This document shows positions 3,985 through 11,221 of a DNA stretch of 36,590 nucleotides, piece by piece. Location of the stretch: the IMG/VR virus record IMGVR_UViG_3300035698_028152, positions 1 to 36,590 of that record. The stretch is one strand, 5' to 3'. This DNA comes from a virus. Under the pieces are notes generated by a model that was given only the letters and a program-made list of their open reading frames with translations, was not told the DNA's origin and did no database searches. The number at the start of each line of letters is the position of its first letter. The stretch's first letter is position 1. Both the position numbers and the translations under genes were made by a program.

Positions 3985-5841
3985 TTATATTAACCTAAGA
4001 CCAGAGGTTTTAGTGCTTTTATCGACAGGGTAGTCTTCGAGAAGCGGGGCAGATTCTTTCGTTTCTTCTTCGGAAGAGTAGTCTTCTTCGGCAAGAAACA
4101 ATGAAGAAGGAACAATCACGGGAGAAGAGTCGTCCAGCGGTGTTTTCTCCTCAGCCACGCCTAAAGGCGCGCTTAATCCTTCTTTTTCTTTTTTAAGGAG
4201 CTCCTTTTCTTTTTCAAGCTCCTGTTTGTTGAGATAGGACTGGAATCTATCTTTCACCCCCACCGCGTCATAACACAGCTTAAAATCCTGTATAGACATG
4301 GCAGGTCCTCGGCCAAAAATTCGGTCTTCCGTTCTATTCCTTCTCATTATTTCTTGGCCGACGGTTTCTTTGGTTGACTCATCATCAGAGACTTCACCCC
4401 CATCAGCTATTATTTTAGCTCTTAGGGTTTCTCTCTTTCCGATCGCTAAAACCTCCTCTTTAAATTCCGTCATTGTTTCGTCGGTTGGTTCTCCACACGC
4501 AAGCGTATCGAGGCGGTCCATGACCTTTTCTTGCTGTCCTTTCGTTAAGGATTCAAACCAAGGGGTCCTTATCATGCAGAAGTCCTCAATGTCTTTTTGT
4601 AGCTTTTTTTGTCGCTGAACTTCGCACAAATCCCGCCATCGCTCCTCTCTCATTTGGTCTTTCATGCCTGCTTCTTCATACAGCTTCATGAATTTTTCAG
4701 CCGTAGAAACGATTCTCCCGTCCCTAATATTTTTGTCTCTGTTTTCGAGCATTTCTTTCTGCTTAGTGCTCGGCGGCCCAGGCATAACCAATGCGTCCTC
4801 GTCCTCTATACTTTCTTCCTGCGCCCACTCCCCCAAAGTAAATGCACCTTCGGTGCTGCCATTAACTCTAGCTCCCAGCCTGTCATCCATTCTCATTCGA
4901 ATAGCGAGCCTGTCTTCCCTACCTATTCTTGTATACTCAAACATCCACGGTCCATAAGAGCGGAACGTGCTTCCTTGTGATTGAATATCAGTGTTTCTCT
5001 GTCTAACCAGGACTTGCTGCCTGCGGGTGCATCGAGGAATCATCGGCACGCCTTGCACGGTGAGCGTCGTTCTTATCCTGTGGAAAGGTGCATCCTCCGG
5101 GCGCAATCCTAGGTATTTAGAAATAGGGATACAGGCCGTTATTGCCAGCATTGAATCGTCGGATAAATCGACCAAGGGTATTAGCTGGGAAACCTCTTCT
5201 ACAGGCATAGTTAAGAGGTACTCAAGGACGAGTTCATGCCGTTTACATTGATCAAATGAAGCGAGAAGCGACGCCTTCAACCTTATCGCCGCGTCATCGG
5301 TGGCAGGGGGGTAAGGCTCATCAAGACGCTCTTCATTATAGCCTTCCGGCTCAAAACGCGCGCGGACTTGGCGTCCAACGATCTCAGTCCTGCTGTCATC
5401 TAGACACATCGTGCTGAGCAACTCATAGGCGTTCAGATAGGATTGTGAGCAAATAAACCTTATGAGGTAGTGGTGTTCAACACAAGCATCTAATAGAACT
5501 ACAAATGCTTTTTTCTTCATCATAAATTCTTCTCTCTCCAGCCGTTTTACTCTATTTAAGTTTTCACGTGCTATCCGAAAGTCTCGACGCCAGTAAGTCT
5601 GAATGACTATCTGTTCAGGGTCTCGCTCAGGGCTTGGAAAACAGGCAACAGGAAAGTGTTGTAGATTTCTGGCTTGAGCGAGTTGAAAAATCTGTCCTTG
5701 ATTCCTATGATCCAGCCATATGTCGTGGCCATAGGCCCAGATGATGTTGGCGAAGAGGTTTATGATAGAGAATAGCAGCATCCCTACGGCGGCCATGCTG
5801 GGGATACCTAAAAGAATAAAAACGAGAAGTTCAGCGAACAT
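3985..5841 (-). CDS. 618-residue membrane-anchored protein with a coiled-coil tail
   Basis: ATG at 5841 is chosen because AAGGAG lies 6 nt upstream; an upstream in-frame GTG at 5874 has none. Residues 2-40 are strongly hydrophobic, one long or two short membrane segments. The rest is a large charged soluble domain with no motif I recognise. A heptad-like run around residue 560 (ELEKEKELLKKEKEG) predicts a coiled coil, and the C-terminus is acidic. A stretch near residue 310 (YTRIGREDRLAIRMRMDD) faintly recalls the IGD repeat of the 1539 and 2626 proteins, but this is too weak to claim. At 1.86 kb it is the largest accessory gene and is read opposite to the late operon from a divergent promoter. 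Function unknown. Confidence 0.75.
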   Translation of the reverse strand: MFAELLVFILLGIPSMAAVGMLLFSIINLFANIIWAYGHDIWLDHRNQGQIFQLAQARNLQHFPVACFPSPERDPEQIVIQTYWRRDFRIARENLNRVKRLEREEFMMKKKAFVVLLDACVEHHYLIRFICSQSYLNAYELLSTMCLDDSRTEIVGRQVRARFEPEGYNEERLDEPYPPATDDAAIRLKASLLASFDQCKRHELVLEYLLTMPVEEVSQLIPLVDLSDDSMLAITACIPISKYLGLRPEDAPFHRIRTTLTVQGVPMIPRCTRRQQVLVRQRNTDIQSQGSTFRSYGPWMFEYTRIGREDRLAIRMRMDDRLGARVNGSTEGAFTLGEWAQEESIEDEDALVMPGPPSTKQKEMLENRDKNIRDGRIVSTAEKFMKLYEEAGMKDQMREERWRDLCEVQRQKKLQKDIEDFCMIRTPWFESLTKGQQEKVMDRLDTLACGEPTDETMTEFKEEVLAIGKRETLRAKIIADGGEVSDDESTKETVGQEIMRRNRTEDRIFGRGPAMSIQDFKLCYDAVGVKDRFQSYLNKQELEKEKELLKKEKEGLSAPLGVAEEKTPLDDSSPVIVPSSLFLAEEDYSSEEETKESAPLLEDYPVDKSTKTSGLRLI

Positions 5842-5874
5842 GTGGTGCTCCTTGCCTAAGGGGTTGTTGCCCAC

Positions 5875-5973: not shown

Positions 5974-6027
5974 TGTATGCTTGGGGTTATTGCTGCACAA
6001 TGTTCCAACCAATCCGAAGGGGGATGT

Positions 6028-6540
6028 ATGTCAAAGACAAAGCAAGATGTGACGAAGTACTGGTTCGAGTTAGCAAACGCGGGAAAAGGGTTGAAGTCAG
6101 GCGCACCCGGTGGGCGTGGGTACCAAGCCTGGTCTGAAGAAGAAAAAGCCTGCATTGTTGATGTCGTTATATCGGAATTATGCGCAGGGAAAACAGTTCG
6201 ACAATTTTGCCGGGAATACACCAAAGGGCCAACAAGGCCCACGTTAATCAAATGGCTGAACGAGGAGCATGTGATTAAGCGGTACCATCAGGCCATGAAC
6301 CTCGCTGCAATTGCGATACAAGAAGACAGTATCGAAGTGGCTAACGAGGTGGATGAGCGGTCAGAGGCGATTCAAAAGGCCACACTCCAAGTTAAAACGT
6401 TCAACCATATCTCCAACCTTTACCTGAAAGAGTTCCCAAGACAATTGGACATTAGCCAGTTTAGTGATAGCGAGGTGGGTGAATTAATTCAGCGGCTAAA
6501 CAAAGAGCGTGAACAACGTCATGAGCAATACGGCAAGTAA
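6028..6540 (+). CDS. Terminase small subunit (TerS)
   Basis: 170 residues from ATG 6028, behind an AAGGGGG Shine-Dalgarno; an earlier in-frame start at 5977 has no ribosome site. TerS binds the packaging site and feeds DNA to the large terminase. Residues ~40-80 carry a helix-turn-helix (TVRQFCREYT...TLIKWL), followed by the typical Y-x-A-x-x-x-A-x-x-I helices with acidic residues (IEVANEVDE) of the small-terminase oligomerisation core. The next gene, 2 bp on, encodes the terminase ATPase, which supports the call. First gene of the late operon. Confidence 0.8.
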   Translation: MSKTKQDVTKYWFELANAGKGLKSGAPGGRGYQAWSEEEKACIVDVVISELCAGKTVRQFCREYTKGPTRPTLIKWLNEEHVIKRYHQAMNLAAIAIQEDSIEVANEVDERSEAIQKATLQVKTFNHISNLYLKEFPRQLDISQFSDSEVGELIQRLNKEREQRHEQYGK

Positions 6541-6542
6541 GC

Positions 6543-7262
6543 ATGTCTGATCTTGAGTTGCTGAGAGCGCTCCAACAAGAAGCGGACTACTATCGATACA
6601 ACCAGGTTGAATTAGCCTTCCCAGCCGAGGGCAAATATGCACGCCGCTATTATTCCAAGCATCTAGAGTTTATGGCGCTAGGAAAACATTATCGAGAGCG
6701 TTTGATGTTGGCAGGCAACCGTATCGGTAAAACGTACACTGCGGGGGTGGAGTGTACCTACCACGTCACTGGGTTATACCCGGATTGGTGGGAGGGGGCG
6801 CGCTTTGAGCGGCCTATTGAGATGTGGGCAGCGGGTGTCTCGAGCAAAGCTACGCGCGACACGATCCAAAAAACATTATTGGGCCCTATTGACGACCTAG
6901 GGTCTGGGCTCATCCCGAGGCGTCTTATTGTCGGTAGGCCAAGACCGTGTCACGGAACCGCTGATGCTATTGAGAGTGTGGCCGTTCGCCATGTGAATGG
7001 GGGGATTTCTCATTTGGTGTTTAAATCCTACAAGCAGGGGCGGGATGAGTTCCAGGGGACGGCTCAGCATGTCGTTTGGCTGGATGAAGAGCCACCGGAC
7101 AGTGTTTATCATGAGTGCTTGACACGAACAGCGGTTGTACCCGGTAACACACCGGGGATCGTCATTTGTACGTTCACCCCCTTGAGCGGGATGACACATA
7201 TGGTGTCACATTTTTTACCGGAAGGCCGATTGCAAGAGGGTGAATATAAATATGTAGCATAG
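6543..7262 (+). CDS. Terminase large subunit, ATPase part (first half of a split gene)
   Basis: 239 residues. It contains the packaging-motor ATPase: Walker A AGNRIGKT at 57-64, Walker B VVWLDEEPP at 177-185 with catalytic Glu182, and the coupling segment CTFTPLSGMT at 209-218. The frame stops after YKYVA, just where large terminases continue into the linker and RNase H-like nuclease. That continuation is at 7638-8408 (NLTWADNPPHL...). Full-length TerL is about 480-500 residues, and the two pieces together fit. The 7256-7648 interval is therefore an intron-like insertion, or the enzyme works as two polypeptides. The TAG stop lies in the last codons before the insert. Confidence 0.9.
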   Translation: MSDLELLRALQQEADYYRYNQVELAFPAEGKYARRYYSKHLEFMALGKHYRERLMLAGNRIGKTYTAGVECTYHVTGLYPDWWEGARFERPIEMWAAGVSSKATRDTIQKTLLGPIDDLGSGLIPRRLIVGRPRPCHGTADAIESVAVRHVNGGISHLVFKSYKQGRDEFQGTAQHVVWLDEEPPDSVYHECLTRTAVVPGNTPGIVICTFTPLSGMTHMVSHFLPEGRLQEGEYKYVA

Positions 7263-7285
7263 AGAGCCACGAAGGAGAGCCAGGC

Positions 7286-7495
7286 TTGTTAAGTCATTTT
7301 CTTTATTTGTTTATACTTTCAGTTATTGGACTTCAGCTTTCTTATTTCTTCTTGAACAGGGAAGAAGAGTTGTCGTTAATGAGGCGATCATCACAGTTCT
7401 TCTTAGGGACCCTGGGGATAGGTTCTTTAATGTACTTGGTCCTTGTTGATTTATCGAGTGGAACCCCCTATAACATAACCGCCTGGACCCCTTAG
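7286..7495 (+). CDS. Small two-TM membrane protein inside the split terminase
   Basis: 69 residues. A TTG start at 7286 lies 8 nt after a strong AAGGAG (7272-7277), so translation is credible. There are two hydrophobic segments, residues ~2-22 and ~38-56, separated by a charged loop (NREEELSLMRR). No homing-endonuclease motif (HNH, GIY-YIG, LAGLIDADG) is present, which is unusual for a gene carried in an intron-like insert. Size and shape would suit a holin-type or host-membrane-modifying protein, but there is no direct evidence. Confidence 0.6.
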   Translation: MLSHFLYLFILSVIGLQLSYFFLNREEELSLMRRSSQFFLGTLGIGSLMYLVLVDLSSGTPYNITAWTP

Positions 7496-7514
7496 TAGGC
7501 CGAGGCAAAAGCGA

Positions 7515-7596
7515 TGGAGAGGTCCTCTTGCGCTAAGAGGGTTGTCTGCAAAAGGAGCGGGGGCGCTGCCTTCGGGCGGAAGGCCCTCCCTCTCCA
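7515..7596 (+). ncRNA. Structured RNA-like segment upstream of the terminase nuclease part
   Basis: An outer 8-bp helix TGGAGAGG (7515-7522) with CCTCTCCA (7589-7596) encloses hairpin CCTCTT/AAGAGG (7524-7529 with 7535-7540) and hairpin GCCTTC/GAAGGC (7568-7573 with 7579-7584), leaving an A-rich joining segment. This multi-branch fold is not expected in an ordinary spacer and could be part of a ribozyme core or a regulatory fold for the downstream start at 7638. The class is not recognised. Confidence 0.45.
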
Positions 7597-7637
7597 CCTA
7601 TTCATGTAATGCTGGATTCGTTCGTCTGGGGGTGATA

Positions 7638-8408
7638 ATGGCACGTTGCATCATGAATCTGACATGGGCAGATAACCCGCCTCATCTCGACGAAAAGGCG
7701 AAGGAAGAGCTGCTTGAGTCCTACCCCGCGCATCAACGTGATGCTCGCACGAAGGGGACACCGTCACTGGGTTCTGGGGCGATCTACTATTTACCACAAG
7801 AACGGTATGTGCTGGACCCTTTCCCGGTCCCAGGCCATTGGCCGCGCGCGTACGGAATGGATGTGGGTTATGCACACACGGCGGCAGTGTGGGGTGCATT
7901 AGATCCCACCAGTGATGTTGTTTATCTTTATAGTGACTATTACCATTCTGAAGAACGAGGACGTATTGCCTCGACAGACTATTCGAGTGAAGACCGGGGC
8001 ATCGCGGAGCCGATCACGGCCATTCATGCACGCGCTATTCGGTCCCGAGGGGAGTGGATTCATGGCGTCATCGATCATGTGGGGATTAGCTTGGGTGATG
8101 GTCGTAAGGTGCTAGAGCTCTACACCGACGAAGGTCTACGCTTAGAGTTGGCGAACAAGGCGGTCGCCGCTGGTCTTTTGAATATACAGCAACGATTGTC
8201 TGCGGGTGGGCTGAAGATATTCTCCTCTTGTCGGTTTTTATTGAAAGAGATGCGGGAATACCAGCGCAATGAGAATGGAAAAATTATCAAAGAAAACGAC
8301 CATTTGTGTGACGCAATGCGTTATTTAATCAACAATGGGATGGATTATGCTCGTCCATACTTCTACGCAGAAGTGCAATCTGAAGGAAAAATAGATTTCC
8401 CGTATTAA
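7638..8408 (+). CDS. Terminase large subunit, nuclease part (second half of a split gene)
   Basis: About 256 residues if translated from ATG 7638, which has a GGGGGTG-like ribosome site 4-10 nt upstream; otherwise this is the second exon. It holds the RNase H-fold headful nuclease: Asp75 in YGMDVGYAH, a central IDHVGI, and near the C-terminus NDHLCDAMRYL (Asp221, Asp225), the usual metal-binding acids. The region before it (NLTWADNPPHL...LLESYPAHQRDARTKG) is the standard linker between ATPase and nuclease, so nothing essential is missing. The presence of a plausible independent start means either splicing or a two-subunit motor would work. Confidence 0.88.
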   Translation: MARCIMNLTWADNPPHLDEKAKEELLESYPAHQRDARTKGTPSLGSGAIYYLPQERYVLDPFPVPGHWPRAYGMDVGYAHTAAVWGALDPTSDVVYLYSDYYHSEERGRIASTDYSSEDRGIAEPITAIHARAIRSRGEWIHGVIDHVGISLGDGRKVLELYTDEGLRLELANKAVAAGLLNIQQRLSAGGLKIFSSCRFLLKEMREYQRNENGKIIKENDHLCDAMRYLINNGMDYARPYFYAEVQSEGKIDFPY

Positions 8409-10516: not shown

Positions 10517-10718
10517 ATTTCGCAGCTGGAAGGAAGATAAAGTAACGTGCGCGTTATTCGGGGCGCTTAATCGGTTTAAGCGTCAGGTCGGGGAGAGTTA
10601 TGTCTTGATGGGCGTTTATGATAAAGGACAATTTGATGCGGAACGCGGGTTCATCTCTGCAATCGATCAGATTCTAGCAATAGACCTAACCACCCCTGAT
10701 GATGAGGATGCGCAATAA
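10500..10718 (+). CDS. Small hypothetical protein following portal
   Basis: 72 residues from ATG 10500; the TTG at 10497 sits at better spacing (8 nt) from AGGAGG and could be the true start. It overlaps the portal end by 17-20 bp and ends at the ATGA overlap with the GroES-like gene, so it is translationally coupled on both sides. Mostly helical, no membrane segment. Such a 70-100 residue gene between portal and scaffold is common in related podoviruses; role unknown. Confidence 0.65.
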   Translation: MISHSEFRSWKEDKVTCALFGALNRFKRQVGESYVLMGVYDKGQFDAERGFISAIDQILAIDLTTPDDEDAQ

Positions 10719-11221
10719 TGACCGAGAGCGTACAAGAAGAAACAATAGCGAGTAAAGAGCCGATCAAGATAGTGGATATGACGAAGCTGGCAGAGCAGCG
10801 CCCGGCGATGAAAGGGGCTCAGATGACGAGTGATTGTCCGAAGCTTCCTATCATTTATTACGTAATTGTCCGCGTGAATGACCTTGTTGAGAAAGTCAGC
10901 GGGGGTGGGATTATCTTTGCAGAAGCAAATGTCGAACGTGAGATGCACGGCTCAAGCAAGGGTGTTGTTGTAGGCCTAGGCCCTATTTGTTATGAGCACC
11001 TAGGTGAACAATGCAGCGGTTCTTTGCAGTTGGGCGACGTGGTGAGCTTTCCGCGATATGCCGGTGTTGACCACCGCATTAAACGTGATGGCAATATCAT
11101 CCGATATAAGGAGATGAGAGAGTCCGAAGTTTATAGTCCGTTATTGGTGGACGATGATGGCAACCGTTACCCCCAAATGGCTAGTGTGTTTGAATCGCTA
11201 GAAGGAGAAACATCATGGTAG
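10718..11221 (+). CDS. GroES-like co-chaperonin for capsid assembly
   Basis: 167 residues. Residues ~45-140 match the GroES fold: YVIVRVNDLVEKVSGGGIIF, where GGGIIF (62-67) is the mobile loop with the hydrophobic tripeptide that docks on GroEL; then GVVVGLGP, LQLGDVVSFPRYAG and IIRYKEMRESEV, parallel to GroES VGDIV...GYGVK...VLIMSESDI. N- and C-terminal extensions are phage-specific. T4 gp31 is the known precedent for a phage GroES substitute that folds the capsid protein with host GroEL. Its place between portal and scaffold or capsid genes supports the same role here. Start by ATGA overlap with the preceding gene. Confidence 0.8.
   Translation: MTESVQEETIASKEPIKIVDMTKLAEQRPAMKGAQMTSDCPKLPIIYYVIVRVNDLVEKVSGGGIIFAEANVEREMHGSSKGVVVGLGPICYEHLGEQCSGSLQLGDVVSFPRYAGVDHRIKRDGNIIRYKEMRESEVYSPLLVDDDGNRYPQMASVFESLEGETSW

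Follow-up and report, generated by a model that had tools for sequence, protein, structure and literature searches.

We conclude with considerable confidence that the large terminase (TerL) of this virus is specified by two independently translated genes and that two polypeptides make up its packaging motor. The window, by which we mean the whole stretch of DNA analysed here, is a 36,590-nt IMG/VR virus record in which the small terminase, an open reading frame (ORF) at 6543–7262, a second ORF at 7638–8408 and the portal gene follow one another. The one-polypeptide form that is usual for terminases of the Terminase_6 type is absent: as a preliminary description of the DNA had recognised, terL lies in two ORFs. 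Gene A carries an in-frame stop at 7260, and 375 nt separate it from the start codon of gene B (Table 1). No close relative of the window genome is known, and its TerL sits on the tree with a tip length of 1.13.

Both terL ORFs are intact, and each has its own translation start. The product of gene A, which ends ...RLQEGEYKYVA-stop, matches Pfam Terminase_6N (PF03237, E 1.9e-15) and the 261-aa N-half profile phrog_31467 (E 4.5e-60); a phmmer search of chain A against the PDB gave no match. The product of gene B begins MARCIMNLTW... and matches Pfam Terminase_6C (PF17289, E 1.9e-7) and phrog_5653 (E 6e-21). Alignments show that the window TerL keeps Walker A (GNRIGKT), Walker B (VVWLDEEPP) and motif III (TFTP), along with the acidic residues of the nuclease. 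The Shine-Dalgarno (SD) sequence at ATG 7638 is equalled in strength by only 12 of the 734 ATGs in the window (top 1.6%) and is the strongest among the 34 split loci described below. The family phrog_31467, listed as of 'unknown function', corresponds to the TerL N-terminal half; its profile probably derives from split terL genes, and the family deserves a new name. Upstream, the small terminase ORF extends over 5977–6540, and ATG 6028 (SD -10.8) is probably a better start than 5977. Elsewhere in the window, a GroES-like co-chaperonin (PF00166, E 1e-7) is encoded at 10718–11221, directly past the portal gene, and a 629-aa ORF without a known Pfam family runs on the minus strand at 3985–5874, opposite to the packaging genes. 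A scan of the window for tRNA and tmRNA genes found none.

Table 1. Features of the terminase region of the window (energies are those of the duplex with the anti-SD)
Feature	Position	Strand	Description
Terminase small subunit, Sf6-like	6028..6540	+	Pfam PF20901, E 3.3e-11; phrog_1482
terL gene A	6543..7262	+	239 aa; ATPase domain except its last part, with Walker A, Walker B and motif III
SD AAGGAGAG of the 69-aa ORF	7272..7279	+	-8.8 kcal/mol
Candidate small gene	7286..7495	+	TTG-initiated ORF of 69 aa with two hydrophobic stretches
GC-rich intergenic stretch	7496..7627	+	58% GC; foldable, not significantly
SD GGGGGTGAT of terL gene B	7628..7636	+	-9.7 kcal/mol
terL gene B	7638..8408	+	256 aa; final ATPase strand with two further ATPase helices, complete RNase H-like nuclease

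On the AlphaFold2 model of L051, one of the fused relatives (mean pLDDT 88.6), the break maps to the loop at residues 225–237; a strand (238–243, in a block with pLDDT 80–93) and helices (253–273) follow. ATPase-only crystal structures cover residues 19–279/291 (P74-26) and 24–277 (T4, 2o0h) of this model, and nuclease-only structures begin at its residues 277–281. These domain-structure alignments place the break ~45 residues inside the ATPase domain and not at the interdomain hinge, which corrects the preliminary description, where the interruption had been set between the ATPase and the linker and nuclease. Modelled alone, chain B of the window contains a confident nuclease (residues 46–244) that matches P22 TerL (4dkw, Z 25.1); its residues 1–10 have a pLDDT of 49 and form no strand. 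Because the final strand of the ATPase and two of its helices belong to the nuclease chain, the ATPase is probably completed in trans by the two chains, and the simplest reading of the models is that the N-terminus of chain B would fold onto chain A to complete the ATPase sheet.

The same break is found throughout the viral relatives. We retrieved 100 viral loci with either half and checked whether both halves share one open frame; L046 and L100, which are frameshifted elsewhere, were excluded. Among the viral relatives in the tree set that have both parts, terL occupies one ORF in 47 of 80 and two ORFs in 33 of 80, and the split relatives are broken in the same loop. Fused relatives read ...TFTPLxGMSETVMAFLPNGxxxxxxxGSKFVVMATWDDVPHL...; in split relatives, chain A ends at or just past FLP..., and chain B opens with M-S/T/A-K/R, which replaces the residue before K-F-V-V. 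The Rhizobium phages RHph_N2 and kin, whose match names had suggested a split, carry terL in one ORF.

A start could be assigned to the second gene in 34 split loci, a set that includes the window and several near-identical pairs, and it falls in the same alignment column in all of them. Stop and start overlap (by 1–4 nt) or abut in 19 of the 34, as in ATGA or TAATG, and the two halves are in different frames in 26. The second starts in these loci have a median SD energy of -5.7 kcal/mol, compared with -2.5 kcal/mol for all ATGs. Where two genes overlap in different frames, they cannot represent exons of a single message. Wider spacings also occur: the halves are ~5–6 kb apart, with many ORFs between them, in the records holding L079, L061, L060 and L090, 2.25 kb apart in L082, and 133 nt apart in MW202785, a complete circular genome in which both CDS are annotated 'large terminase protein'. 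By eye, a GroES-like ORF lies between the terL halves of L082 and L090. The preliminary description would have been contradicted by homologues that invariably have two separate genes and nothing between them, and this is half the case: the halves are separate in many homologues, with spacings from a 4-nt overlap to several kb, while other homologues are fused. In L058 (3351–3983), the first residues of the chain A frame resemble the C-terminal end of an intein (...VYDLTVDGLHNYIAGGIVHHN) and lie at the Walker A motif, so this terL seems to carry an intein as well as being split.

The arrangement extends to bacterial genomes. A search with a single split C-terminal half as the query found terL in two ORFs in 51 of the 73 bacterial relatives with both parts, at distances from a 4-nt overlap to ~3 kb, and the split loci include the complete chromosomes NZ_CP015318 and NZ_CP080525. 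The hosts are mostly Mesorhizobium, together with Bosea, Bradyrhizobium, Methylobacterium and Propionivibrio. In Mesorhizobium, where the spacer covers the same range and is filled by unrelated genes, median dN/dS is 0.171 and 0.122 for the two halves, indicating purifying selection on both. About 45 Mesorhizobium genomes (L135–L198) are split, with host-like genes between the halves (by eye, FAD monooxygenase-like and lipoprotein-like); these loci could be ancient prophages or gene-transfer-like elements. The split bacterial copies L138, L177 and L198 look decayed or frameshifted.

On the tree, grouping all split forms into one clade is rejected (p-AU 3.6e-43), and the split/fused label needs 11–12 changes by parsimony, at least five of which are forced by well-supported branches. 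The split forms are thus not one clade, so splitting or re-fusion has recurred; the tree does not distinguish between the two. In Mesorhizobium, two copies whose halves overlap or nearly abut form the sister group of all gapped copies, which suggests that the split came first and the cargo later.

What lies between the halves in the window had been described as a two-transmembrane protein gene followed by a structured segment. The 69-aa ORF does have two hydrophobic stretches (residues 5–23 and 38–56, mean KD 2.06 and 1.88) and an SD of its own. An ORF of this length arises in 13% of shuffles of insert-like composition, and searches gave it neither a relative among IMG/VR viral contigs nor a Pfam or PHROG family; for these reasons, we treat it as a candidate gene only. 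It is most likely passenger cargo that may encode a membrane protein. The structured segment was not borne out: against dinucleotide shuffles, folding gives z -1.0 for 7510–7602 and -0.6 for 7490–7605, 200-nt windows range from -1.5 (best) to +1.7, and the whole insert is less stable than its shuffles (z +1.76). Nor did whole and windowed folding of the insert against shuffles reveal the compact stable fold of a group I or II intron. At the insert ends, the K-Y-V-A and R-C-I-M codons are dissimilar as DNA by eye, giving no sign of a target-site duplication. In agreement with the preliminary description, the insert holds no homing endonuclease gene detectable with Pfam or PHROG. The 375-nt stretch is most likely a spacer, cargo that entered after the split, and not an intron.

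Several other readings would return a single TerL to the virus. If the 393 nt at 7256–7648 were a self-splicing intron (group I, group II or an undescribed type), its removal would restore the frame, as previously proposed, and this part of the proposal holds: 393 is divisible by three, and the deletion yields a perfect fused ...EYKYVIMNLTW..., comparable to ...KFVVMATW... in the fused relatives. The window differs from the other split loci in that chain A retains the linker through K-Y-V, with the result that each chain has its own version of this strand. Introns in terL exist, in ICP1 (PMC10448857) and, as group I introns, in the Jug phages (PMC12363816). Because chain A keeps K-Y-V and in-frame removal gives a normal TerL, the intron stays under consideration as an unlikely reading. 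Rfam returned no match in the insert at E ≤ 10 bar a chance miRNA model, and scans of the window and 15 relatives returned nothing; this silence is weak evidence, since Rfam also failed to detect the terL locus of ICP1, whose splicing has been demonstrated experimentally. The other observations speak against splicing: the insert folds less stably than shuffles, the candidate ORF with its own SD occupies much of it, and a strong SD and ATG stand exactly at the start column of dozens of split relatives that cannot be spliced. The comparative evidence from these sequences points to two genes instead. One TerL could also be obtained from two ORFs by ribosomal bypass of the spacer or by a split intein, and terL inteins do occur, as in Mic1 (PMC7156551) and perhaps at the intein-like end in L058. 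In the window, chain A stops right past the conserved strand and chain B opens with MARC, which leaves no room for intein parts, and neither bypass nor an intein is applicable to split relatives whose genes overlap or lie kilobases apart. To our knowledge, a ribosomal hop of 375 nt has no precedent, and we regard bypass and protein splicing as extremely improbable.

The remaining alternatives concern how the split arose and whether it is real. A homing endonuclease could have made the split on insertion and later been lost or replaced by the small ORF, an origin that is compatible with a two-gene motor and that we hold to be possible, if doubtful. The route is known from the Aeh1 nrdA and phage gene 43 cases (PMC2988022). 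Among the relatives, an HNH gene lies between the halves of L003 (PF01844, E 8.8e-5), and directly upstream of chain B lie an endonuclease VII-like gene in L079 (3225–3980; PF02945, E 2.6e-17) and, in L073 (3394–3984), a gene that is HNH-like by eye and has no Pfam match. Most split relatives, however, have no endonuclease and simply overlap by 1–4 nt, and the sister position of the coupled Mesorhizobium forms fits an order in which splitting preceded cargo. The L003 gene is itself an argument against this origin: its first residues duplicate the chain B start, as though the gene had entered a terL that was already split. In that locus (1631–2195), the HNH gene opens with SKCVVMAG, the chain B start is repeated after it, and chain B is frameshifted. 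A broken pseudogene or an assembly artefact of the metagenomic contig is very improbable. A similar split in Parabacteroides phage PDS1 was suspected by its authors to reflect recoding, a genetic-code problem or an assembly error (PMC10773633), but the window has all catalytic motifs intact in both halves, no other frameshift and a strong second SD. The same break column recurs in independent complete genomes, and the split halves are under purifying selection.

We therefore return to the motor made of two proteins. Since split terL recurs across many related phages and prophages, two proteins probably come together within the ATPase to form the motor. Of the earlier suggestions, that of two polypeptides, the second starting at 7638, has strong support from the comparative evidence. 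The two chains would be made from neighbouring genes, and in related phages their translation is likely often coupled at ATGA overlaps. Chain A would supply the P-loop core of the ATPase as far as motif III, and chain B, from ATG 7638, the last ATPase β-strand, two helices, the hinge and the whole nuclease. We infer that the chains assemble into an active motor, in which the N-terminal strand and helices of chain B would dock on chain A and complete the ATPase in trans. Docking would re-create a TerL subunit, with the hinge that couples ATPase and nuclease kept intact on chain B. When the two domains of T4 gp17 are separated at the hinge, each retains its activity but DNA translocation is lost (PMC9958956), so any split motor must somehow preserve coupling. 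That the hinge is kept with the nuclease, and the ATPase is cut instead, suggests why a natural split could still couple.

Compared with TerL of the P22/T4 type (P22 gp2; 4dkw, 4znk, 3cpe), the window shares all motifs and both domains but uses two genes, broken inside the ATPase before its last strand. The closest parallels in organisation are genes in pieces of T4-like phages, such as Aeh1 NrdA split by mobE, gp43A/B of phage 25 and the T4 topoisomerase gp39/gp60 (PMC2988022). As in those cases, an essential single-chain enzyme has become two polypeptides, which in the window would presumably function together; the differences are that here the enzyme is, as judged from sequence, a packaging motor, that no endonuclease is present in the window and that the split recurs in one clade at one loop. 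PDS1 (MN929097), a lytic phage available in culture, encodes its TerL as two CDS, gp45 and gp46 (PMC10773633), and this two-CDS form is what it has in common with the window, although its TerL belongs to a different lineage. Its gp46 (148 aa) gives a weak match to a T7-type RNase H model that begins at position 31 of the model's 108, and the PDS1 TerL is on that account probably broken further downstream. The terL genes of ICP1, the Jug phages and Mic1 resemble that of the window in being interrupted by extra sequence. In these phages splicing restores one polypeptide, whereas no intron or intein core was found in the window and many of its split relatives cannot splice.

TerL is among the most used phage marker genes and among the strongest molecular motors. 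A literature search within non-subscription papers found no paper treating split TerL as a recurrent functional state; it had been noted in passing only, in PDS1 (PMC10773633) and in the annotation of MW202785. The arrangement had been called unusual beforehand, which is apt for the literature and not for this clade, where it is common. We lean towards the wider view that bipartite motors are widespread here, with an ATPase completed in trans, a state repeatedly reached or reversed at one loop, and a gap that serves as an insertion site for cargo. As natural two-part motors, they would offer halves that can be mixed, labelled and titrated to test subunit and domain coupling. They also carry a warning for annotation, in that a terL that seems 'truncated' or 'frameshifted' at this loop may often be a real two-gene motor.
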